A DNA stretch of 64,000 nt from the NCBI GenBank assembly GCA_016185245.1, contig JACPNZ010000031.1, positions 124,001-188,000 on the forward strand. The letters are read 5' to 3'. Below are positions 5,941 through 28,271 of this stretch, piece by piece. Under the pieces are notes generated by a model that worked only from the letters and a program-made list of their open reading frames with translations, ran no database searches and was not told the origin of the DNA. Origin of the DNA: Hyphomicrobiales bacterium. GTDB taxonomy: Bacteria; Pseudomonadota; Alphaproteobacteria; Rhizobiales; Aestuariivirgaceae. The stretch's first letter is position 1; the number at the start of each line of letters is the position of its first letter. Both the position numbers and the translations under genes were made by a program.

Positions 5941-6039
5941 CGCCGGTGGATAGCCCAGCGGTGCGCGCCGAACAATGGCACGGCCGCCCTGCCCGCCGCG
6001 CATGACTTGCAGAGCGAGGCGGATGCCCCTATCGTTCCT

Positions 6040-6195
6040 CCCGCTTGGTACCGGCATTGCCGGAGAATCGGGAATGCGGTGCGACTCCGCAACGTGCCCA
6101 ACGCTGTAAGGCGGATGGAACAGCTCATGCCACTGGCCGTTCCGGCCGGGAAGGCGCTGTGCCAGTTGAAGCCGAAGTCAGAAGACCGGCCAAGC
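6040..6195 (+). promoter_or_regulatory. Cobalamin (B12) riboswitch upstream of bluB
   Basis: The leader of bluB carries the conserved pieces of an adenosylcobalamin aptamer in order: a GGTACCGGC element near 6047, the CGGGAATGCGGTGCGA block at about 6069-6084, CCGCAAC, the GCCACTG at about 6129, the GGGAAGG at about 6148, GAAGCCGAAGTC, and the B12 box AGTCAGAAGACCGGCC at about 6176-6191. It ends roughly 60 bases before the bluB ATG, so it probably controls translation or read-through of bluB by cobalamin. The match was made by eye to the family consensus. A covariance-model search (Rfam cobalamin family) would confirm the limits. Confidence 0.9.
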
Positions 6196-6253
6196 AAAAT
6201 AGGCGATTCCGCATGGACGGCGGAGGGCGCTGCAGGCCGCATCTGGCAGGGGA

Positions 6254-6943
6254 ATGACGATGCAAGATAAGTCCACCAGTCTCGCCGCAGCGGGACCTTT
6301 CAGCGAATTCGAGCGCCAGGCCGTCTACCGTGCCATCTTCACCCGCCGCGACGTGCGTAGCCAGTTCCTGCCGCGGCCGGTTGCGGCCGCGACCCTCGAA
6401 CGACTGTTGCTCGCCGCCCACCACGCGCCATCCGTCGGTTTCATGCAGCCGTGGAATTTCGTCGTCATTACCGGCAGCGAAGTGAAGGCCGCGATGAAGG
6501 CCGCCTTCGTCAAGGCCAATGCCGAAGCCGAGGCCCAGTTCGGTGACGGCCGCCGCCAGCTCTACAGTGCGCTCAAGCTCGAGGGTATCGGCGAGGCGCC
6601 GGTCAATCTCTGCATCACCTGCGACCGCACTCGCTCCGGACCTGTTGTGCTTGGCCGCACCCATAACCGCGACACCGACATCTACAGCACCGTTTGCGCA
6701 GTCCAGAACCTGTGGCTTGCGGCCCGCGCCGAGGGGCTCGGCGTCGGCTGGGTCAGCATCTTCAATGACGCCGACATCCGTTCCATCCTAAAGCTGCCTG
6801 ACCATGTCGTGCCGGTCGCCTATCTGTGCATCGGCCATGTGGAGGAATTGCATTCAGCACCAGAACTCGAGGTGAAGGGTTGGCGGAAGCGACTCGACAT
6901 GCGATCTCTAGTGTTCTCGAACGCCTGGGGCCGCCGCCGGTAG
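6254..6943 (+). CDS. bluB: 5,6-dimethylbenzimidazole synthase BluB
   Basis: A 229-residue nitroreductase-fold enzyme. BluB uses oxygen to fragment reduced FMN into 5,6-dimethylbenzimidazole, the lower ligand of cobalamin. Supporting features are the FTRRDVRSQFLPRPV N-terminal block, the HHAPSVGFMQPWNF motif characteristic of BluB, LCITCDRTR, and the AEGLGVGWVSIF segment. A GGCAGGGG Shine-Dalgarno sits directly before the ATG at 6254. The cobalamin riboswitch in its leader supports the assignment independently. It is separated by ~43 kb from the other cobalamin genes in this window. Confidence 0.96.
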   Translation: MTMQDKSTSLAAAGPFSEFERQAVYRAIFTRRDVRSQFLPRPVAAATLERLLLAAHHAPSVGFMQPWNFVVITGSEVKAAMKAAFVKANAEAEAQFGDGRRQLYSALKLEGIGEAPVNLCITCDRTRSGPVVLGRTHNRDTDIYSTVCAVQNLWLAARAEGLGVGWVSIFNDADIRSILKLPDHVVPVAYLCIGHVEELHSAPELEVKGWRKRLDMRSLVFSNAWGRRR

Positions 6944-7022
6944 AAGTCAGCCCGGGCAACGAGGTCTTCCATGAGCGCAGGGCCTCCTGTAGAAACGCGG
7001 ACCCGCGATGTGAGGTGCCGCC

Positions 7023-8330
7023 GTGCCGCCAGCCTTCTTCCATGCCGACTTCAAGGCCCGCCCCTTCTGGTGGGAGGCCCATGAGCCGAAGCCGCTGCCC
7101 GAAGTCACCCTGCCCCGCGAAGTGCGAGTGGCGGTCGTCGGCGCCGGCTATGCCGGCCTCAACGCAGCACTTGAACTCGCCCGTGAAGGCATTTCCTGCC
7201 TCGTGCTCGACGCCAACGAACCGGGCTTTGGCGCCTCGACCCGGAACGGCGGCATGGTGTCGGGCGGGGTCAATGTCGGCAAGCGCTACCTTGCCAAACC
7301 GATGAGCGACGAGGAGGCCTCGCCCTATCTCGCCGATGCCGCCGATGCTTTCGGCCTGGTCGAAGATATCATCGCCCGCGAAAACATCGCCTGCGGCTGG
7401 ACCAGGGCCGGCTATTTCGTCGGGGCCTGGTGCAAGAGTCATTATGACGCCATGGCCCACAAAGTCGAGGTGCTCAATCGCTATGCCAGGGCCGAGGCGC
7501 AAGTCATTCCGCCCGACCGGCAGCGCGAGGAAATCGGCTCCGACTACTATCGCGGCGGCATGCTCATCGGCCGCGGCGCCCATCTTCACCCGGCTCTCTA
7601 TTTCAAGGGGCTGCTCGACCTCTGTCTGGCGCGCGGCATTGCTGTCGCCTCGACGACGCCGGTCATCGGCCTCACTCAAAATGGTGCAGGCTGGGAGGTC
7701 ACGACACCGCGCGGCACGATCCGGACGGGTGACGTCATCATTGCCACCAACGGCTATACCGGCGATGTGACTCCGCAGTTCAAGCGCCGGGTGGTGCCGG
7801 TCGGCTCCTACATCATCGCCACCGAGGAACTCGATCCGGCGCTCGCTGCCACCATCAGCCCGAAGAACCGCTCGATTGCCGACACGCGCCGCGTTCTCAC
7901 CTATTATCGCAAGTCGCCCGATGGCCGGCGGCTCATCTTCGGCGGACGCGCCAAGTTCGGCCAAACCGATCCGGTCGAGACCGCACCCGTTCTCTACCGG
8001 TTCATGCTCGACCGCTTCCCGCAGCTCAAAGGCTGCAAGATCACCCACACCTGGACCGGTAACGTCGCCTTCACTCTCGACGAGATGCCGCACATGGGCC
8101 GCTTCGACAATCTGCACTATGCCCTGGGCTGCAACGGCTCAGGGATCGCCATGATGTCCTATCTCGGCCACCAGACGGCGCGCAAGATTGCCGGCAGGGT
8201 CAACCGGGTCTGCGCTTTCGACCGGCCGGAATTCCCCGACCATCCGCTGTACACCGGCAATACCTGGTTCCTGCCGTGGATCGGCCGCTATTTCCGCGCC
8301 CGCGACTGGCTCGACCGACGGGCCGGCTAG
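7023..8330 (+). CDS. FAD-dependent amine/amino-acid oxidoreductase (DadA/PuuB family)
   Basis: A 435-residue DAO-fold flavoprotein. It has an FAD-binding VAVVGAGYAGLNAALELAREG near residue 38 and the motif GFGASTRNGGMVSGG typical of gamma-glutamylputrescine oxidase-like enzymes. The C-terminal block ALGCNGSGIAMMSYLGHQTA binds the flavin. Such proteins oxidise amines or N-substituted amino acids to imines or aldehydes, and the exact substrate is not evident. The start is a GTG preceded by a GAGGTG-like ribosome-binding site. Its stop shares the CTAG tetranucleotide with the stop of the convergent thiolase gene, so no terminator fits between them. Confidence 0.87.
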   Translation: MPPAFFHADFKARPFWWEAHEPKPLPEVTLPREVRVAVVGAGYAGLNAALELAREGISCLVLDANEPGFGASTRNGGMVSGGVNVGKRYLAKPMSDEEASPYLADAADAFGLVEDIIARENIACGWTRAGYFVGAWCKSHYDAMAHKVEVLNRYARAEAQVIPPDRQREEIGSDYYRGGMLIGRGAHLHPALYFKGLLDLCLARGIAVASTTPVIGLTQNGAGWEVTTPRGTIRTGDVIIATNGYTGDVTPQFKRRVVPVGSYIIATEELDPALAATISPKNRSIADTRRVLTYYRKSPDGRRLIFGGRAKFGQTDPVETAPVLYRFMLDRFPQLKGCKITHTWTGNVAFTLDEMPHMGRFDNLHYALGCNGSGIAMMSYLGHQTARKIAGRVNRVCAFDRPEFPDHPLYTGNTWFLPWIGRYFRARDWLDRRAG

Positions 8331-9514
8331 ACAGGCTGCCGCTCGATTGCCACGGCGGTCGCCTCGCCGCCGCCGATGCACAGGGAAGCGATGCCGCGCC
8401 GGGCGCCACGCGCAGCCATGGCGTGGAGCAGCGTCACGATGATGCGGACCCCGCTGGCACCGATCGGATGGCCGAGCGCACAAGCCCCGCCATTGACGTT
8501 GACGATGTCGGCGGGAAGGCCGAGATCGCGCATCGCCACCATGGCGACGACTGCGAAGGCCTCGTTGACCTCGTAAAGCTCGACGCTGCCCGGCGGCCAG
8601 TCGAGCTTGGCCAGCAGCGCCTGCACCGCACCTACGGGTGCCGTGGTGAACTGACCCGGCTCGCGGGCATGGCCGGCATGGCCAGCGATCCGCGCCAAGG
8701 GACGGATGCCACGGCGCTCTGCTTCCGATCGCCGCATCAGCACCAGGGCGGCCGCGCCATCGGAAATCGACGAGGAATTGGCGGCGGTCACCGTGCCGCC
8801 CTCGCGGAAAGCCGGGCGCAACTGCGGAATGCGGGTGGGATCGGCCCGGCCGGGTTGTTCGTCCACGGCAAGGCTCACGCAGCCCTTCACAGCGGGCTCG
8901 TTGACCGTGACAGTTTCGCTCGTGAACGCGCCGGAAGAGATGGCGGCGATGGCGCGCTTGAGCGAGCCCAGCGCATAGGCATCCTGGGCCTGGCGCGAGA
9001 ACTGATAGGCCTGGGCTGTGTCCTCGGCGTAGCTTCCCATCAGGCGTCCGGAATAGGCGTCCTCCAGCCCGTCGGTGAACATGTGGTCCTTGACCTCGCC
9101 ATGGCCCAGGCGCAGGCCGCCGCGAGCCTTGGGCAACAGGTAGGGCACATTGCTCATCGACTCCATGCCGCCGGCCACCACGATCCGGTTGCTGCCGGCG
9201 AGGATGCTGTCATGGCCGAGGATCGCCGCCTTCATGCCCGAGCCGCACACCTTGGAGACGGTGGTGGCCGGAGTTGCCTCGCCCAGACCCGCGGCGAGGG
9301 CTGCCTGACGTGCCGGATTTTGCCCGACACCGGCGCCGAGAACATTCCCCATGAGGACCTCGTCGACCTCATTAAGGCCTGCCTCCGCCAGCGCCGCGAC
9401 AATGGCAATGGCGCCAAGCTTCGGTGCCACAAGACCGGCTAGGGCTCCCTGAAAGCTGCCGATTGGGGTGCGCTTTGCCGCCGCGATGACGATGGGGTCA
9501 AGCTTTTCGCTCAT
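8327..9514 (-). CDS. Acetyl-CoA C-acetyltransferase (thiolase)
   Basis: A ~395-residue type II thiolase, last gene of the leucine-degradation operon. It condenses or cleaves acetoacetyl-CoA. The nucleophilic Cys lies in [10 protein letters not shown] (about residue 88). The catalytic His is in [14 protein letters not shown] and the second Cys in SLCIGGGEA near the C-terminus. The ATG at 9514 overlaps the hydratase stop (ATGA), whereas an ATG nine bases upstream would overlap it more. Here it probably processes the acetoacetyl-CoA end of leucine degradation or ketone-body metabolism (inference). Confidence 0.93.
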
Positions 9515-19509: not shown

Positions 19510-21513
19510 TCACTTCCCGGCTGCCAGCAGTGCGGGCATTAGCCTCTGCCGCCAGCTATTCACTTCCGCAACCCTCAGCTCATCCCCGATCTCGACGCTG
19601 TTACCAGCGCTTTCGGCAGGTTCCGCACGCGGCCCCGAAAGCAATCCTCGCACCCGAACCGCCGACCGGCCGAGCGCCAGCAAACGGTCCAGCGCCCCGG
19701 CAGCTTCGTTCGCATCGCCGATTTGCAAGCTCCGCGTCAGGTCATACACTGCATCAAACCACGGCGTAACCAGGCAGCGCCGCACCGGCAAAACAGCTGG
19801 CCATTTCTCTACAAGTTCAGCAAAATTGACCTCAATGTCGTTCAGCCGCTCCTCGCTTATCGTGCCGCTTGCACCGCCCGCTGCCAATTCGGCCCCTGCC
19901 ATACCGGGTTCGACCGCCCGTTGTGCCGTCATGCCAGCTGCGACCGCCCCGCTGCCGCTCCCACCCAGCGCGGCCTCAAGGATCGCCCGTCGTTCGCCAT
20001 CGGCTGCCTGCGCCAGTTCCGCCGCGCGCTTGGCACTTTGACTGGTTCTGATGAATATGTATCCAAACAACACCGGTTCGCCAAACAGACTTCCGTAGTC
20101 TTGCGGCAGTTGAATGCCCCGTAACAGCGGCTGCAAGCCCGAAAGCCTGGCAAGTGCTACCATTTCCATATCGTTCCAGTAGCTAATGAAGCCAGACGTC
20201 GCCAGCCCCCAACGCCGCAACTCGTTCCGCAGGTATCGGCAGAATCGCTCGACCGCAACCTCACGCCGCTTGTGGACCAACATTCGAAATCCATCGAGAA
20301 TCGGAGCAAGCTCGTTTTGCGCTCCGACGATGATCGCTCTATTGTCCTTGATGACCCTCGTCATCTCCGCCATCACGTCTCTTATTTTCATGTAGTTAAT
20401 GGCATTTACGCAAATGATGTTGTCGACGCTTGCGTCGCCCAGCTGCATCGCGGCGGCGTCCTGAAGAGCGAATTTGATCCTTCCGTCGATATGATCCTGA
20501 CTCTGCCTCTGCATGAATTCGACAAACAACTTGTTCTTATCTATGGATATAGCCCGAACGTTCCCTGCCACACCGAGAGCCGCCAACGCCCAGTTCCCGA
20601 TGCCGCCGCCGATGTCCAGCACTATGCTGTTGTTGCCCGGCTCGGCCGCCGCGCCGATCCCGTGGCGGCGCAGAAACTGCGTCGTCGACGTCGTGCCGGC
20701 CTTGAGCTTTTCAAAATAGTACTCAAAATCCCCCGGTGAAACGCAGGTCCTGAGGGTGTCATCAACCTTCGCCGACAGATACACCCGCCTGACAAAAGCC
20801 AAAGCGTCGCCGGCGTTCGCAATCGCCTTAAGATCTTTCCCACGCGCGCTCTGATAGCTTACCAAATCGCGAGCCCCGAGATTTTCATAGTGTTTTTGTT
20901 TCAGCATATCTAGAACGCGAGCGAATTCCGTAAAACAGTTATCGGTCCAGTATGCAGGATGGACCTGGATGACCGCGACGGACGGATTGGAGCGGCGATC
21001 GAACACTCGCTTAAAATATCCGAATTCGACTGGCCTGAAGTATTGAGTTCCGATTTCCGGCGTGAGGAGATGTTTGCGAGCAATGTTGGCCGGGCTCTCG
21101 TTCAACGAATCGACAAAATAGAACGTATCGAATTCGTCAGTCTGCGCGATATCCGCCGCGCAGTTGGCGTTGATCGCGTTGTAGGGAGCCCCGAACACTT
21201 TCGGCCGTACGCTTGTCGTGTCCTCAATTACTTTTTGCGCCAGCAGGATATCGGCAACCCGTTCTTGGGGCGACATTTGGTTGAGGTCTCGATGCCTGAA
21301 AGAGTGGTTCCAGAATTCGACAGACATCGTCTCGCTGAGATATCTTGCCAAGTATCTCGACTGCGCGTTGCGACTGTAATCCGAACCGACGATCCCGATG
21401 CTCGGCAGAAAGGCGTGTTCCACGCAAACATCGACAAATTTACGCCAGTTGTCGATCAGCGGACCGCGGCCGAAGTCATCGGCTTTTATGATGGCCATCT
21501 TGAAGTCAAACAT
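19510..21513 (-). CDS. Polysaccharide-deacetylase-like / SAM-methyltransferase fusion protein
   Basis: A 667-residue two-domain protein that I cannot match to a named family as a whole. Residues ~1-225 look like a NodB/YdjC-type deacetylase fold: ADDFG at 11-15 (metal Asp pair), H70-x3-H74 in WNHSFRHRD, FGAPY at 108-111 and a late VHPAYW with H185. Residues ~293-480 are a class I SAM-dependent methyltransferase with VLDIGGGIGNWA (298-309), an acidic ISID strand end, and CVNAINYM. Residues ~520-560 are Ala/Gly-rich linker, then a helical tail. No signal peptide is seen. A GAGGTAG ribosome-binding site precedes the ATG at 21513. Base composition is visibly more A+T-rich (especially 20,850-21,500) than neighbouring genes, suggesting transfer. 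A role in modifying a cell-surface sugar is inference. Confidence 0.72.
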   Translation of the reverse strand: MFDFKMAIIKADDFGRGPLIDNWRKFVDVCVEHAFLPSIGIVGSDYSRNAQSRYLARYLSETMSVEFWNHSFRHRDLNQMSPQERVADILLAQKVIEDTTSVRPKVFGAPYNAINANCAADIAQTDEFDTFYFVDSLNESPANIARKHLLTPEIGTQYFRPVEFGYFKRVFDRRSNPSVAVIQVHPAYWTDNCFTEFARVLDMLKQKHYENLGARDLVSYQSARGKDLKAIANAGDALAFVRRVYLSAKVDDTLRTCVSPGDFEYYFEKLKAGTTSTTQFLRRHGIGAAAEPGNNSIVLDIGGGIGNWALAALGVAGNVRAISIDKNKLFVEFMQRQSQDHIDGRIKFALQDAAAMQLGDASVDNIICVNAINYMKIRDVMAEMTRVIKDNRAIIVGAQNELAPILDGFRMLVHKRREVAVERFCRYLRNELRRWGLATSGFISYWNDMEMVALARLSGLQPLLRGIQLPQDYGSLFGEPVLFGYIFIRTSQSAKRAAELAQAADGERRAILEAALGGSGSGAVAAGMTAQRAVEPGMAGAELAAGGASGTISEERLNDIEVNFAELVEKWPAVLPVRRCLVTPWFDAVYDLTRSLQIGDANEAAGALDRLLALGRSAVRVRGLLSGPRAEPAESAGNSVEIGDELRVAEVNSWRQRLMPALLAAGK

Positions 21514-22070
21514 ACGAATCTACCTCACGAGTCATTGAACCGGCTCCGCTCGCCGGCACAGGCCTGATCGTGATGACGGCAACCTTCCGCATCAATCTGC
21601 CTTGTGGCGCGAGCCGACGGATACCCGGCGCTCATCGAAGCTGCTGAGTGGTTGGGCGAGGATCAGTCATTTGCTGACACTCTCCTGTTGGCCGGTTGGT
21701 GCGTTTGACTCTGACGGCATGGTCATTCGGGTCCGCATATATCCTGGCGTTGGTTCAAGCGTAACCGCTTTTGACGGCATTCGCGCATTTCAAATGTTTA
21801 ACCTGATTCCTGGAGCGCAGCTCGCTTACAGGGGCGTTTCGAAATCTTCGTAACCGGCCGATGGGAGGTGTGCAGTTTTCGCTTTGCTTGCAAACGCTTG
21901 CTTTTTTAATTCAAATACCTGGCGGTTTTGACGCTAGTTACGGTCCTATTTTAGCTAAGCGGGTTACCTGGTATTTAGTACCATCGGCATCATTAATTGA
22001 TCGTAACTTTGTCTCGTGGCACGGTTTCATCGTTCGTTAATCAACGCGGCGGAAAGCCAGGAGGAACCAG
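21514..22070. other. A+T-richer intergenic region between divergent genes
   Basis: This 557-base gap lies between the divergent deacetylase-methyltransferase gene and the Gly-rich protein gene. No convincing gene is present. An 83-codon ORF (21602-21853) has no ribosome-binding site, no recognisable motif and no coding-like composition. The part from about 21,880 to 22,040 is clearly A+T-rich, with runs such as TTGCTTTTTTAATTC, and must carry the promoter of the Gly-rich gene. No strong inverted repeat was identified by eye. Confidence 0.6.
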
Positions 22071-22481
22071 ATGGATTCTAAGAAATTGTTATCGATTCTT
22101 GGCGTGGCCGGCGTTGTCGTCCATGTCGCGGGGGGTACCACATCCCTGGCCAAAGCCACATCCTCGCCGGACGCGCTCCAGCAGATCCTGCAAACCAGTC
22201 CGACCAGCGACGACGCTTCGGCAGCCTTTCAGATGCTGGCCGAACGGGCCAGCGGCAAGAGTGGCGGCGGTAAGGGCAAGAGCGGCGGCGAAGGTGGCGG
22301 CAAGGGCAAGAGCGGCGGCGAAGGTGGCGGCAAGGGCGGTAACGAAGGCCATGGCGGCGGTAACAACGGCGGCGGTGGCAACCATGGCGGCGGAGACGAT
22401 GGCGACAATGGCGGTGGCGATGGCACCGACGACGGTGGCGATCACGGAAATGGTAACGGCGGCGGCCATTACGAGGGCTGA
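22071..22481 (+). CDS. Small Gly-rich repeat protein, probably secreted
   Basis: A 136-residue protein with no recognised family. A short basic N-terminus (MDSKK) and a hydrophobic stretch (LLSILGVAGVVVHVAGG, residues 6-22) suggest a signal peptide. A short helical segment (DALQQILQTSPTSDDASAAFQMLAERASG) follows. From ~61 to the end it is almost only Gly, Asp, Asn, Lys, Glu and His, starting with a decapeptide GGGKGKSGGE repeated and then diverging to GGDDGDNGGG-type sequence. A perfect AGGAGG Shine-Dalgarno lies seven bases before the ATG, implying strong translation. Acidic Gly/Asp-rich tails can bind cations, but this is speculation. Confidence 0.7.
   Translation: MDSKKLLSILGVAGVVVHVAGGTTSLAKATSSPDALQQILQTSPTSDDASAAFQMLAERASGKSGGGKGKSGGEGGGKGKSGGEGGGKGGNEGHGGGNNGGGGNHGGGDDGDNGGGDGTDDGGDHGNGNGGGHYEG
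22271..22340 (+). repeat. 30-base tandem repeat inside the Gly-rich gene
   Basis: Two nearly identical 30-base units (22271-22300 and 22301-22330, differing only at their first base) are followed by the first bases of a third that then diverges. They encode the decapeptide KGKSGGEGGG. Copy number could vary between strains by slippage without disturbing the frame. Confidence 0.85.
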
Positions 22482-22678: not shown

Positions 22679-25600
22679 ATGAACAGTTTCGACGTCGTAA
22701 TGATCGGCGACTTCCGCTTTCCCGGCGGAACCTCGGTGGCCACCGCCCATGAGATCCGGGCGCTGGCCGCAGCGGGCCTGTCGGTCGGCCTGTTACAGAC
22801 CAATGCCGACATCCTCCGCCAGCGACGTCCCATGCACACTCTGATCCAGGGCTGCCTCGACCGTCGCGAAGCTAACGTCATCGCCGCCGAAAGAACGGAG
22901 ATCGAGGCGCGCCTCGGCATCCTGCACAATCCGATGGTGTTCAACCGGCTGCCCGCCGGGCTGCCCCGCCTGCGCTTCGGCCAAGCCATCCTGGTGGCGC
23001 ATCAGGCCCACACGGACCGCAACGGCCTGCCCTATTACGATGCTGACGGTGTCAACGCGGTAGTCAAGGGGGTCGCCGGAGACTCCGTCCGTTGGGCCCC
23101 CATTTCGCCGGTGGTTCGCCGTAACCTGAAAAACACAGCCCCCGCCGCCGCCCTACACGATCAGGACTGGCACAACATCGTCTTTGCCGAGGAATGGAGC
23201 ATCGGCCGCGGCAAACCGCTCAAATCCATTCCGGTGATCGGCCGTCACGGCCGGGCCGACAAGGACAAGTGGCCGGCATCGCGTAGCGACATTCTCGCCG
23301 TCTATCCGGACGATCCGGCAATCGAGGTCAGGTTGCTCGGCACCGGCGACTACCTGAAGCGGGTTGTGGGCGAGTATCCGGCCAACTGGACGGCCTATCG
23401 CTTCGGCCAGATGGAACCGCAGCAGTTCCTCAAGACCGTCGACTTCTTCCTCTATTATCACCATCCCGACCTGGTCGAGGCTTTCGGCCGGACGGTCCTC
23501 GAGGCCTGCGCCAGTGGGGCAGTGGCGATCCTGCCGCCGCATTTCGAGGAGACCTTCGGCGAGATGGCTTTCTACCGGCCGGCCGCCGAGGCGGTCGAAA
23601 CCGCCTGTCGGCTGCATGGCGACTGGCGGCGTTACGGCAAGCAGTCGCAGCTCGCCAGCCGGCTCGTCGACGAGCACTACAGCCCCGCCCGCCATGTCGC
23701 CTTCATCGAGCGACTGCTCGGCAAAACGCGCCCGCGCAGCCGGCCCAAGGCAGTTTCCACCCGACAAACAAAAAACACCGACAGGGGCCAATCCATGAAG
23801 ACCGTCGCCAGCTTTCACCTCGCCGACCCCGCCTATGACGTCACCATCGTCGCCGACATGCGCGCGGCGGGCGACGTCGCCTTGCGGATTTCCCACGAGA
23901 TTCGCATTCAGCACCTGAATGGTTTTCGCACAGCTCTGCTGCACATGCCGTCGGGACGCATCAAGGCCACTTCGGTACGTGGCGAAATCAACGCCTGCGT
24001 GCGCGAAAGCATGGCCGATGTCTTGACCGCGACCGACCAGATTTCCTCGAAGCTGGTGGTCATCCACGCGCCGGAGACCGCCCTTGAGCCCCTGCCCGAG
24101 CGGCTGCCGGGAATCTCCACCGAGCGTGTCGTGGTGGTGGCCAGTCGGGCCCCGGACGCGAGCTACAATGTGCAACGCAAGCATCGTCTGCTGGCCCTTG
24201 CCTTCCGGGTCCAGCCGGTATGGGCACCGGTGTCGCCGCAGGTACGCGATGCCCTGCTCAAGGCCTGGCCGGAAATTCCGCTGGAGGCCGAGGACTGGAG
24301 CGTGTCGCTGGCTCCCAAGCAATGGGCCGAGCGGGTGCTGACCTGGGACCGGCCGGTCGTCGGCCGGATCGATTCGGAATTACCGCTCGAAGCCGCCAAG
24401 ACCGACAAGCCGGAACCGAATCCCCAGCCGCTGCCGCATTTTCCCGGTTGCTACCTGCGCCTCCTGCAGCACCAGCCGGTCGTCGACGATCCGCCGAGTA
24501 CCATCCTCGACCGGTTGTCGATCGAGGAACAGGCGGTGGGACGCTTCCTCGCCAGCCTGGATTTCCTGCACGTCGATCCGGACGAAACGAAGCCCCTTGC
24601 CCATTGCACCATCGCCGAGGCACTGCAGCGCGGCGTGCTTGCGTTGGTCAAGCCGGAGCTTTCCCGCGAATTCGGGGCAGGCGCCATTGCCTGCGCCGGT
24701 GCCGCCAAGGCCGAGGAGATAGTGAAGGCACTCTCCCGCGATCCGGCCGAACGCGCCAGGCTGTCGCGCGATGCAGCGCGCAATGCGAGCTCGCGCTTTG
24801 CCGCAGCCATCCATGCCGAGCGAATTGCCAGGCTTACCGGTGCGATCCCGACGCCGCGCCTGCCTTCGGGTACGAAACGTCAGCGCATTGCCTTCGTCAC
24901 TTCGAACGGCGTGGGGCTCGGCCACCTCACTCGGCTTCTTTGCATCGCCCGGCGTCTGCCTCCGACCATCGATCCGATCTTTGTTACCATGAGCCAGGCC
25001 TTCGGCATCGTGAAGGACTTCGGCTTCCCGGTCGAATACATCCCCTTCACCAGCCACAGCGAGATGAGCGGCGTGGTCGACTGGAACAGCTGGTTTCGCT
25101 TGCATATCGAGCAGATCTTCGATGCATACGGCATCACCGGTACGGTCTTCGACGGCGGCGCCCCCTATGCCGGCCTGGTGCGGGCGATTGCTGCGCGGCC
25201 CGACTTCTTCAGCGTCTGGGTGCGCCGCGGCATGTGGCGGGCGAGCCGGGCCAACGACAATCTGCTGAAACGGCAGAAGCACTTCGATCTGGTGCTGGAA
25301 CCTCGCGATGTAGCCGGCGCCCGCGACAACGGACCCACCTCGCAGCACGCCGGCCGATCCGCCCATGTCGATCCGATCCGCCTTCTCGACGAGGAAGAAC
25401 TTCTCGACCGCCGCGCCGCCGCCAAGGCGATCGGCATCGATCCCCGCCGCCCCGCCGTGCTGGTGCAATTGGGATCGGGAACCACCAGCGAGATCGTCAG
25501 TCAAACGAGCGAGATTATCCGGGCCTGCGCCAGGTTTCCGAAGCTTCAAGTGGTGATTGCCGAGTGGGCCATCGGGGCGGTGTCGTTCGACGTCTGGCCC

Positions 25601-26062
25601 GATGTCAAGGTGCTGCGCGGCTTTCCGCTCAGCCGTTACTTCCGCGCCTTCGACTTCACCATCTCGGCGGTCGGCTACAATTCGTTCAACGAGATCATCT
25701 CCTTCGGCCTGCCGGCGATCTTCCTGGCCAACGAGAACCCGATCATGGACGACCAGGCGGGTCGTGCCGCCTATGCCGTCGAGCAGGGCGCCGCCTTCCT
25801 GACCTCGCCCGAGGAATTGAAGAACCTGCATGTGCTGATCGAGGCGCTCCTCGACGAGCGGGCCCGCTCGATCATCAAGGTCAACTGCGCCCGCATCGCC
25901 CAGCCCAATGGGGCGCAAGCCGCAGCCGACATCATCGCCCGTCTCGCCGGCGCGCCTAGCCACGAGGTCGAAGCGGCACCCGTTCGGCAGCCCAGCGCAA
26001 CCCGCAAGCCGGGGCGGCGAAAAACTTCCACTTCCGGCAAGCGTATCCTGGAAAGGGCCTAA
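22679..26062 (+). CDS. Triple-module glycosyltransferase (1127 aa)
   Basis: A very large cytoplasmic-type protein with three glycosyltransferase-like modules. Module 1 (residues ~1-350) resembles GT-B family 4: DVVMIGDFRFPGGTS at the start and a C-terminal site with HHPDLVEAFGRTVLEACASG. Module 2 (~373-725) has a related but degenerate layout (VTIVADMRAAGDVALRISHEI; FHLADPAYD) with no clear donor-site motif. Module 3 (~733-1090) is GT28/MurG-like: SNGVGLGHLTRLL at its N-terminus and SAVGYNSFNEIISFGLPAIFL at the donor site. The junction at residue 373 (position 23795) is an ATG preceded by CAGGGGCC, as if two genes had fused. The ATG at 22679 follows CCAGGAAACAGC. It is followed one base later by the 234-aa gene and then ugd, so polysaccharide synthesis is the likely setting. 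Sugar specificities are unknown. Confidence 0.8.
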   Translation: MNSFDVVMIGDFRFPGGTSVATAHEIRALAAAGLSVGLLQTNADILRQRRPMHTLIQGCLDRREANVIAAERTEIEARLGILHNPMVFNRLPAGLPRLRFGQAILVAHQAHTDRNGLPYYDADGVNAVVKGVAGDSVRWAPISPVVRRNLKNTAPAAALHDQDWHNIVFAEEWSIGRGKPLKSIPVIGRHGRADKDKWPASRSDILAVYPDDPAIEVRLLGTGDYLKRVVGEYPANWTAYRFGQMEPQQFLKTVDFFLYYHHPDLVEAFGRTVLEACASGAVAILPPHFEETFGEMAFYRPAAEAVETACRLHGDWRRYGKQSQLASRLVDEHYSPARHVAFIERLLGKTRPRSRPKAVSTRQTKNTDRGQSMKTVASFHLADPAYDVTIVADMRAAGDVALRISHEIRIQHLNGFRTALLHMPSGRIKATSVRGEINACVRESMADVLTATDQISSKLVVIHAPETALEPLPERLPGISTERVVVVASRAPDASYNVQRKHRLLALAFRVQPVWAPVSPQVRDALLKAWPEIPLEAEDWSVSLAPKQWAERVLTWDRPVVGRIDSELPLEAAKTDKPEPNPQPLPHFPGCYLRLLQHQPVVDDPPSTILDRLSIEEQAVGRFLASLDFLHVDPDETKPLAHCTIAEALQRGVLALVKPELSREFGAGAIACAGAAKAEEIVKALSRDPAERARLSRDAARNASSRFAAAIHAERIARLTGAIPTPRLPSGTKRQRIAFVTSNGVGLGHLTRLLCIARRLPPTIDPIFVTMSQAFGIVKDFGFPVEYIPFTSHSEMSGVVDWNSWFRLHIEQIFDAYGITGTVFDGGAPYAGLVRAIAARPDFFSVWVRRGMWRASRANDNLLKRQKHFDLVLEPRDVAGARDNGPTSQHAGRSAHVDPIRLLDEEELLDRRAAAKAIGIDPRRPAVLVQLGSGTTSEIVSQTSEIIRACARFPKLQVVIAEWAIGAVSFDVWPDVKVLRGFPLSRYFRAFDFTISAVGYNSFNEIISFGLPAIFLANENPIMDDQAGRAAYAVEQGAAFLTSPEELKNLHVLIEALLDERARSIIKVNCARIAQPNGAQAAADIIARLAGAPSHEVEAAPVRQPSATRKPGRRKTSTSGKRILERA

Positions 26063-26063
26063 G

Positions 26064-26768
26064 ATGCTCAACACCCCCGAAGCACTGCAATATGAGATCG
26101 GCCGGCTGCGCGACATCGTCGAACGCCAGTATCTCGAACTGGCCTGGCAGCAGAGCGAACTACGCAGCCGCGGCGGCAAGGCCAAGGTAGTCAGGTTCGG
26201 GGCCGGCGATCTCGCCCGGACCAATCTCGCCGGCAACGCGGCATTGCTTCGCGATACAGCCCGCCAGCCGTCGCCCGAGGCCTGGCCGACCGGACCGACG
26301 CCGGCTAGTCCGCTGATCGCCAATTGCGGCTTCGCCAGCTACACCTCGGGCCGTGCCGATCTGGCTGCGATCGGTATTTCGGTTTGCGGTCTCGACGAAG
26401 CAAGCGTCGAGCATGTCGTCGGCATGGTCGAGGAGCGGCTGCGCAAGGTGCGGAACTTTCGACCGGTTTTTCTGATGGACGTGACCCGTACCGAGATCTT
26501 CCGGCGACGGGGGCTTGCCTACGAATATGTGCCGCCGGCCGATGGCAAGGACAAGCGCCAGGAAGCCCGTCTTGCCGCCTTCAATGCCCGCCGGGTCGAG
26601 TTCCTCAAGCGCAAATGGGGCTTCACCGAGATCATCAATTTCGGCGCCAAGGTGCTGGGCCAGGCGGGGGCCACGGGCAGCCTTGGCATGCTCAATTCGA
26701 CCGTTGAGCGCATCGCCGACCGGACGGCCCAGGCCCGCCTCAAGCATCAGACAGCGCAGGCATCATAA
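26064..26768 (+). CDS. Unrecognised 234-aa protein coupled to the glycosyltransferase
   Basis: I do not recognise this family. Residues ~5-37 (EALQYEIGRLRDIVERQYLEL...) form a probable short coiled coil. A Pro-rich linker follows, then a compact C-terminal domain from ~85 with NCGFASYTSGRADLAAIG, a FRPVFLMDVTRTEIFRRRG segment and EYVPP, ending in a basic helix. The ATG at 26064 starts one base after the glycosyltransferase stop codon, so translation is coupled. The open frame extends upstream, but only as a shadow of the glycosyltransferase. Ugd follows 18 bases later. A regulator, scaffold or sugar-binding accessory of the glycosyltransferase is possible, but nothing in the sequence decides this. 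Confidence 0.75.
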   Translation: MLNTPEALQYEIGRLRDIVERQYLELAWQQSELRSRGGKAKVVRFGAGDLARTNLAGNAALLRDTARQPSPEAWPTGPTPASPLIANCGFASYTSGRADLAAIGISVCGLDEASVEHVVGMVEERLRKVRNFRPVFLMDVTRTEIFRRRGLAYEYVPPADGKDKRQEARLAAFNARRVEFLKRKWGFTEIINFGAKVLGQAGATGSLGMLNSTVERIADRTAQARLKHQTAQAS

Positions 26769-26786: not shown

Positions 26787-28271
26787 ATGCGAATCGCGAT
26801 CATCGGCTCGGGCTATGTCGGCCTCGTATCCGGCGCCTGTTTCGCCGATCTTGGCCATAGCGTCACCTGCATCGATAGCGATACCCGCAAGATTGAGAGC
26901 TTGCGGACCGGCGTGTCGCCCTTCTACGAGCCGGGCCTGGAGGTTCTGGTCCATCACAATGTCGAGGCGGGCCGCCTCGCCTTCGCCACCACCATTGCCG
27001 GCAATGTGGCCGGTGCCGATGCGGTGTTCATCGCGGTGGGAACCCCTGGCCGGCGCGGCGACGGCCATGCCGACCTCTCGGCGGTCTTCGCCGCCACCCG
27101 TGAAATCGCCCGGCATGCGCAGGGCTTTACCGTGATCGTCACCAAATCGACGGTACCGGTCGGCACCAGCGACGACATCGAAAGGGTGATCCGCGAGGAG
27201 AATCCGGCCGCCGATATCGCCGTCGTTTCAAACCCCGAATTCCTGCGCGAGGGCTCGGCGATTTCCGATTTCCGCCACCCCGACCGCATCGTCGTGGGTT
27301 TTTCCGACGAACGGGCGGGCGCGGTGATGACCGACATCTACAGGCCCCTGACCCGTGACCGGGCCCTGCTTCTGTCGACCGGACGGCGCGCCGCCGAACT
27401 GATCAAATATGCCGCCAACGCCTTCCTGGCGCTGAAGATTACCTTCATCAACGAAATCGCCGATCTGTGCGAGGAAGCCGGCGCCGACGTCCAGGACATC
27501 GCCCGCGGCATCGGCCTCGACAAGCGTATCGGCACGCATTTCCTGCAGGCCGGACCGGGCTTCGGCGGCTCGTGCTTTCCGAAAGACACGCTTGCCCTGG
27601 TCAAGACCGCCCAAGACTATGGCCGGCCACTCCGCCTTATCGAAACGACGGTTGCCATCAACGAGCAGCGAAAGCGCGGCATGGCCCGCAAGATCGCCAC
27701 TGCCTGCGGCGGCTCGGTGCGCGGCAAGACAGTGGCGATTCTCGGCCTTACCTTCAAGCCCAACACCGACGACATGCGGGGGGCGCCCTCGCTCGATATC
27801 ATCCGCGCCCTGCAGGACCAGGGGGCGGCGATCAGGGCCTTCGATCCGGTCGGCATGGAGGCGGCCCGGCCGCTCCTCAACGATGTGGCCTATGCGACCG
27901 ATCCCTACGATGCGGCCCGGGGCGCCCACGCTTTGGTTATCGTCACCGAGTGGAGCGACTTCCAGGATCTCGACTTCCCGCGGCTCAAAAGTTTGATGGA
28001 AACGCCGGTGCTGGTCGATCTCCGCAATGTCTATCGCCCCGAGGATGTGCGCCGCCACGGCTTCCTGGTCAGTGCTGTCGGCAGGCCTGCGCCCTATCGT
28101 GGCCTCGGCTTCGTGCCGCGCCTCGAATGGACGGATGCCTGGCGGCATTTCGACGAAAGCCCGCGTTGGCAGGCTGTGGCGCTGGGCGGCACCGCCGCCG
28201 AGGTAACGGTCCCGTCCGAGCGCCGGGCGCTCAGGGGCAAGGATCACTCGTCAAGAGCTCCAGCTGCCTAA
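26787..28271 (+). CDS. ugd: UDP-glucose 6-dehydrogenase
   Basis: A 494-residue NAD-dependent four-electron dehydrogenase making UDP-glucuronate for capsule, exopolysaccharide or LPS. The N-terminal Rossmann motif is IIGSGYVGLVSGACFADLGH. The substrate-site Cys is in GPGFGGSCFPKDT. The C-terminal domain has LTFKPNTDDMRGAPSLDII. It is about 50 residues longer than a typical ~435-450 aa Ugd: the normal end near DVRRHGF is followed by an extension containing YRGLGFVPRLEWTDAWRHFDE. AAAGGAC precedes the ATG. The last ~41 bases overlap the convergent eipB gene. It supplies a donor sugar to the adjacent glycosyltransferase (inference). Confidence 0.95.
   Translation: MRIAIIGSGYVGLVSGACFADLGHSVTCIDSDTRKIESLRTGVSPFYEPGLEVLVHHNVEAGRLAFATTIAGNVAGADAVFIAVGTPGRRGDGHADLSAVFAATREIARHAQGFTVIVTKSTVPVGTSDDIERVIREENPAADIAVVSNPEFLREGSAISDFRHPDRIVVGFSDERAGAVMTDIYRPLTRDRALLLSTGRRAAELIKYAANAFLALKITFINEIADLCEEAGADVQDIARGIGLDKRIGTHFLQAGPGFGGSCFPKDTLALVKTAQDYGRPLRLIETTVAINEQRKRGMARKIATACGGSVRGKTVAILGLTFKPNTDDMRGAPSLDIIRALQDQGAAIRAFDPVGMEAARPLLNDVAYATDPYDAARGAHALVIVTEWSDFQDLDFPRLKSLMETPVLVDLRNVYRPEDVRRHGFLVSAVGRPAPYRGLGFVPRLEWTDAWRHFDESPRWQAVALGGTAAEVTVPSERRALRGKDHSSRAPAA

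Follow-up and report, generated by a model that had tools for sequence, protein, structure and literature searches.

A fused protein in which GT4-like and GT28/MurG-like glycosyltransferase modules flank an apparently degenerate relative of the first

Introduction

Among the described systems closest to the protein analyzed here, the GtfB component of GtfA-GtfB is not known to be catalytic, and PssD-PssE is of the GT28 type. GtfA-GtfB (Gtf1-Gtf2), which acts in the glycosylation of serine-rich repeat proteins, is reported to join a glycosyltransferase (GT) with a chaperone-like partner (PMC5063993, PMC6291802), the PssD-PssE glucuronosyltransferase of Rhizobium leguminosarum to be a GT in two halves (PMC7589315, PMC9961541), and the mannosyltransferase WbdA of K. 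pneumoniae O5 to carry three GT modules in a single chain (PMC11231755).

Here, we analyze a 1127-residue protein encoded in a 64,000-nucleotide stretch of a Hyphomicrobiales genome (the window), with modules termed M1, M2 and M3 and an adjacent gene, ACC. Like WbdA, it has several GT modules per chain; WbdA, however, has one module per linkage, whereas in the window protein M2 is, by motif, without a catalytic pair and M3 is GT28-like. GtfA-GtfB may be regarded as an analogy, in that a GT works with a GT-like helper, but it consists of two proteins, with a protein acceptor and no GT28 part. PssD-PssE, with its half-domains encoded as separate genes, would be an analogue for ACC and for the use of UDP-GlcA; in contrast, M3 is complete in the window protein and ACC is an additional half.

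Two groups of homologs are also among the closest systems. Plasmid-borne proteins from Rhizobium, Sinorhizobium, Shinella and Paracoccus, designated 'glycosyltransferase' where annotated, are homologous over M1 and M3 at about 30% identity but have no M2, and mostly lie near a caspase-family gene that was not found near M2-bearing genes. M2-M3 two-module proteins share their M2 and M3 clades with the window protein and have an ACC domain nearby but, unlike it, no active GT4-like module ahead. In the literature searched, whose coverage excludes most subscription journals, we found neither an account of the M1-M2-M3 layout nor anything relevant on fused pseudo-glycosyltransferases.

Results

A three-module protein with two types of donor site

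The reading frame is real and open throughout (Table 1), and its protein has a match count of 1 in its own genome. The sole other M1-M2-M3 protein that we found is encoded at 5966-9277 of locus L026 (genome G403), in a different family from the window. Kyte-Doolittle averages over 19-residue windows peak at 1.26, and since no stretch is strongly hydrophobic, the 1127-residue protein is probably cytosolic or peripheral. The full-length AF2 prediction proved unusable (pLDDT 31), so that the assignments of M1 and M3 rest on sequence.

Both glutamates of the EX7E pair, which we take to be the GT4 motif, are present in M1 (E267, 23477-23479; E275, 23501-23503). Against Pfam Glycos_transf_1, M1 scores 12.6 bits, under the curated cut-off of 26.4, and its GT4 label is therefore based on the motif and on its family, five of whose six members match Glycos_transf_1 at E <= 0.1 (best 1.9e-5). 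M3 passes the cut-off of 22 bits for PF04101, the GT28 C-terminal domain, both within the whole protein (22.9 bits) and alone (24.1 bits), and it matches the MurG structure 7d1i (E 8.2e-6). Identity as MurG proper was rejected, the TIGR01133 equivalog score being 17.5 bits against a cut-off of 250.25. The motifs GVGLGH, GYNSFNE and MDDQ are intact in M3, and among 31 M3 rows the loop His is present in all, the donor-side Glu in 29 (Asp in two) and the xDxQ Gln in 30; we presume that these loop and donor-site residues have their usual roles.

The initial annotation had described three modules with donor sites of two types at the ends, which M1 and M3 bear out as GT4-like and GT28/MurG-like; the modules themselves fall into only two types, since M2 is homologous to M1. 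The parts are known, and it is their arrangement that seems new: intact-looking GT modules flank a related module whose catalytic site has apparently been lost.

Table 1. Features of the three-module gene and its surroundings (positions in the window; L026 is the second three-module protein)
Feature	Position	Strand	Basis or description
Three-module glycosyltransferase ORF	22679..26062	+	1127 aa, stop included
M1, residues 1-350, GT4-like	22679..23728	+	EX7E pair, aligned columns; 59.6% identical to L026 M1
Linker M1/M2, residues 351-384	23729..23830	+	4/34 aligned residues identical in L026
In-frame ATG, residue 373	23795..23797	+	SD-like CAGGGGCC at 23782-23789
M2, residues 385-726, pseudo-GT4-like	23831..24856	+	M1 homology, EX7E pair absent, predicted fold
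M3, residues 736-1090, GT28/MurG-like	24884..25948	+	PF04101, motifs, MurG structure match
M3 GVGLGH, residues 744-749	24908-24925	+	N-terminal GxGxGH loop
M3 E1005	25691-25693	+	Donor-side Glu
M3 Q1026	25754-25756	+	Gln of xDxQ
Partner gene ACC	26064..26768	+	234 aa; domain related to N-terminal half of M3
Ugd (UDP-glucose 6-dehydrogenase) type gene	26787..28271	+	TIGR03026 460 bits vs cut-off 189.8
Small Gly-rich protein	22071..22481	+	136 aa, hydrophobic N-terminus, upstream of GT
Polysaccharide deacetylase-methyltransferase fusion	19510..21513	-	667 aa; PF01522 + PF13649

M2 is maintained without the usual catalytic pair

By sequence comparison, M2 is a diverged homologue of M1 (E 3.8e-15, 25% identity over 358 aa; 6.3e-41 by hhalign). 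Of 36 N-type modules, 22 have the EX7E Glu pair, scored on aligned columns and not by regular expression; all nine M2-clade modules lack it, which agrees with the degenerate appearance that the initial annotation had ascribed to the middle module. Among the 27 non-M2 N-type modules, the pair is also absent from L002, in which the second Glu is replaced by K, and from L031, L068, L069 and L071. Single positions persist in M2: the second Glu is kept in the window and L026, the first position is Glu in L083 and L084 without the second, and L030 has E at the first position, again without the second, in one alignment only. Matches to a strict EX7E regular expression in L041 and L069 were discarded as contradicted by the alignment. 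The GRH of the donor-side stretch is likewise missing from all nine M2 modules.

The predicted M2 structure (pLDDT 61) matches GT4 GT-B structures, and M2 would seem to have a GT-B fold, which may be partly borrowed from the model's alignment of three rows, two of them M1-type. Six M2 rows used as a profile against the PDB returned no GT (best 6d23, E 0.25), and a Pfam search of M2 returned no family. The initial annotation had expected its reading to fail if homologs shared the fused junction and the middle module had no GT fold; the M1/M2 junction is indeed fused in both three-module homologs, whereas M2 seems, in the model, to be GT-B.

Between the window protein and L026, M1 and M3 are 59.6% and 62.7% identical, M2 36.5% and the linker 11.8%, and it is the difference between the last two that indicates that M2 has been kept as a domain. 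The acceptor and donor halves of M2 are 45.7% and 25.2% identical in this pair, compared with 58.3% and 62.0% for the halves of M1. When all pairs are compared, conservation is higher in the acceptor half for 28 of 36 M2 pairs and for 25 of 171 M1-type pairs, pairs that are not independent; the latter derive from 19 rows, after exclusion of eight non-M2 rows (the four degenerate ones, L005 and L009 with a short N-end, L072 and L077). For selected closer pairs the counts are three of four for M2, with the donor half better conserved in the fourth, and two of seven for M1-type modules. The ratio of N-module to M3 differences in sister pairs is 1.25-1.76 for five M2 pairs and 0.97-1.52 for six M1 pairs, ranges that overlap.

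As judged from these alignments, the donor half of M2 has decayed more than the acceptor half, and M2 is maintained as a domain, though not as the usual GT4 kind of enzyme. The greater decay of the donor half makes a non-catalytic acceptor or scaffold part plausible, and the scaffold role suggested in the initial annotation would fit a possible non-catalytic helper that is still kept as a domain.

Relatives and evolutionary history

Searching genome contigs identified one relative, L002, with M1 fused straight to M3, and a plasmid collection contained 52 records with matches, of which 12 loci were read. At a threshold of E <= 1e-25, the M3 profile matched 13 of 397 genomes in the order, 5 of 385 in the class, 6 of 398 in the phylum, 4 of 28 in the family of G403 and 2 of 69 in the window's own family; these draws overlap, and the window's genome is counted in all except the family of G403. 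The other 36 genomes of the window's genus gave no match with the M3 profile, and G409 and G076 have partial M3 matches.

We read 34 M3 places with their flanks, comprising 20 two-module proteins with a non-M2 N-module (degenerate in L031, L068, L069 and L071), seven M2-M3 proteins from six genomes (L027-L030, L041, L083 and L084), two three-module proteins and five others. M3 has no recognized N-module, or is cut at the contig end, in L042, L070, L072, L074 and L086. L003/L042 (G059) was dismissed as a stand-alone M3 because the contig ends there, and L072 (Pelagibacterium), with an M1 gene and an X-M3 gene 388 bases apart, is a loose parallel only, as X matches neither M1 nor M2.

In a 30-row N-module tree without six long-branch or degenerate rows (L072, L077, L068, L069, L031 and L071), the nine M2 modules group together as a clade (100/99), and a 33-row tree that keeps these six and precedes the inclusion of L083-L085 likewise places seven M2 rows in a clade (99/97). 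A clade uniting the M1 and M2 modules of the two three-module proteins is rejected by an AU test (p 5.1e-5), and with it a recent local duplication of M1 into M2. In the M3 tree (34 rows, without L070), the M2-M3 and M1-M2-M3 proteins group together with the cut L042 (89/98), and within this group the two three-module proteins pair with the M2-M3 protein L041 (97/90). Two architecture changes suffice on this tree, in a count that skips rows without an N-module and treats the four degenerate rows as M1-M3. L041 is not the sister of the three-module proteins in the N-module tree, so that the two trees partly disagree. On these sequences, a single addition of M1 ahead of an M2-M3 protein would be the simplest history.

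The M1/M2 junction

An ATG with a ribosome-binding-like sequence at 23795, and a module boundary near residue 373, had both been pointed out in the initial annotation, correctly so: the ATG is in frame, CAGGGGCC lies upstream, and M2 is the first recognized module in the seven M2-M3 proteins. The ATG stands 13 residues ahead of the M2 core, and by our reading three of those seven proteins (L084, L030 and L027) start 15-19 residues ahead of theirs, the other four having less clear starts. Its anti-SD pairing (-5.7 kcal/mol) exceeds that at the ORF's own start (-4.3 kcal/mol) and ranks second of 13 in-frame ATGs past the first codon, behind M296 within M1, and sixth of 53 in-frame ATG/GTG/TTG codons; pairing at least as strong occurs at 8.7% of all ORF positions. 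The GC dip ahead of the ATG is one of 19 equally low in the ORF with a 36-base window, and in the lowest 4% (128/3336) with a 48-base window. L026 has Val (GTC) at the position of residue 373.

Within the fetched flanks of the seven M2-M3 genes (1.4 to about 9 kb, some contigs being short), the search for split homologs that the initial annotation had proposed revealed no separate M1 gene. Genome-wide, there is no second M1 match in G213 or G441, and G236 has two weak further matches (E 4.9e-4 and 0.008).

Gene neighborhood

A single base separates the GT stop from the ATG of ACC, and hhalign relates the ACC domain to the N-terminal half of M3 (E 1e-5, probability 82). Of 34 M3 places, 24 have an ACC domain (>= 36 bits) in their fetched flank, including all nine M2-bearing ones; seven of these rows went into building the model. 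The Ugd-type gene is in the same gene run as both three-module genes (window and L026) and is immediately ahead of the stand-alone M3 genes L074 and L086; with 7 of the 38 places scanned, M1-only included, it is not confined to three-module loci. In L028, L083 and L084, ACC is fused with an alginate lyase, and a heparinase II/III gene precedes ACC and the GT in L006 and L007. Together, the Ugd and lyase neighbors suggest a uronate-containing glycan. The initial annotation had proposed that such a protein could build a repeating unit alone; there is no priming transferase, flippase or polymerase among the five annotated genes at 19.5-28.3 kb.

This block is likely of accessory origin, judging from its absence in the genus. 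An empty site was not found in the relatives checked, where the DNA to its left and that to its right are on separate contigs; three of four left-hand stretches stop no more than about 1 kb from the E2 gene, and only L087 and L088 extend about 8 kb beyond DUF3108, without the block's genes. GC content at 20001-22000, which is mostly the deacetylase-methyltransferase gene, is 0.538, compared with ~0.65 in the adjacent blocks. The small Gly-rich protein matches no family above cut-off, and L027, L030 and L041 also encode small secreted-looking proteins close to their GT genes.

Of the 20 two-module non-M2 genes, 16 (L005-L009, L031, L033-L039, L067, L071 and L085) have a caspase-family (Peptidase C14) gene in their fetched flank, as does none of the nine M2-bearing genes, and L009 has type VI secretion genes as well; the literature search returned nothing relevant on a link between caspases and glycosyltransferases. 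In L027 (1-3858 and 7622-10924), WbsX-type and RgpF-type glycosyltransferase genes lie near the M2-M3 genes, as do RgpF-type genes in L029 (4492-7608) and L030 (11317-14265), the M2-M3 genes concerned belonging to G403, G236 and G213.

Discussion

The best explanation of these data, and one that we hold to be fairly probable, is that an active GT4-like M1, a pseudo-GT4 M2 and an active GT28-like M3 make up the protein, M1 having been added to an older M2-M3 protein; it is based directly on module homology, on which motifs the modules have or lack, on positions in the trees and on neighboring genes. The N-module of the older protein would already have been without the usual catalytic pair when an active M1-type module was joined ahead of it. 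M1 and M3 would then each transfer a sugar onto a common acceptor, and one or both of them, M3 being the better candidate, might use UDP-GlcA or a sugar derived from it, while M2 and ACC may serve to hold the acceptor, or the two active modules, or to position them.

We weighed this against readings that are not mutually exclusive, some of which have the same anatomy, so that the likelihoods given here are not to be added up. The initial annotation had proposed that a stop codon was lost between two adjacent genes, leaving 23795 as a fossil or still used start. The in-frame ATG does lie about where M2-M3 proteins start, with an SD-like pairing that beats that of the ORF's own start; yet the ATG is missing from L026, a protein from another family that has the same fusion, with M1 and M3 about 60% identical and an unalike linker, the SD-like match is ordinary for this ORF, the GC dip is not outstanding, and both three-module proteins are fused, with no M1 gene in the fetched flanks of the seven M2-M3 genes and no good second M1 match in G236, G213 or G441. 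We consider this origin very improbable. Hardly better placed is a protein in which all three modules are active, M2 through another catalytic arrangement, and which makes a trisaccharide: M2 is kept as a domain, and three GT modules per chain are known from WbdA (PMC11231755), but neither the EX7E pair nor GRH occurs in any M2 module and the donor half decays, making such an enzyme unlikely.

A tandem duplication of greater age is harder to set aside, and we regard it as possible, if doubtful. An M1-M3 ancestor would have copied its first module, the second copy would have decayed to M2, and the M2-M3 lineages would have lost M1. M1 and M2 are homologous, and a clade of all M2 with the three-module M1 is compatible with the AU test (p 0.43; p 0.40 in a second test); against this, the best N-module tree puts the window M1 outside the M2 clade, and the M3 tree would call for two or more losses of M1 among M2-M3 lineages (L041; L027-L030 with L083/L084), as opposed to a single gain.

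A further reading, which we put forward tentatively, is that a pseudo-GT that has given up its donor site but kept its acceptor domain might hold the acceptor, within one chain, for two active GTs that belong to different families. At least two lineages, represented by the M2 clade, L031/L071 and L068/L069, have lost the EX7E pair from an N-module while the GT28-like module fused to it is intact, and a dead N-module would thus be a recurrent working design. If this is true, the window protein would show such a design being given a new, active GT4-like module. The natural series M1-M3, M2-M3 and M1-M2-M3 lets the role of a pseudo-glycosyltransferase be tested comparatively. The protein also draws attention to a scarcely described family in which fused glycosyltransferases are accompanied by a half-domain partner and whose named members are mostly Alphaproteobacteria.

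Further module arrangements were observed among the loci read. A second M3-type module, which in Shinella stands behind a methyltransferase domain, follows the M1-M3 gene in L006 (11220-13100) and L008 (11869-13089). In L075 (5525-8077) and L077 (5606-8173), a GT2 domain is followed by an M1-type module, and a nucleotide sugar dehydrogenase gene adjoins.
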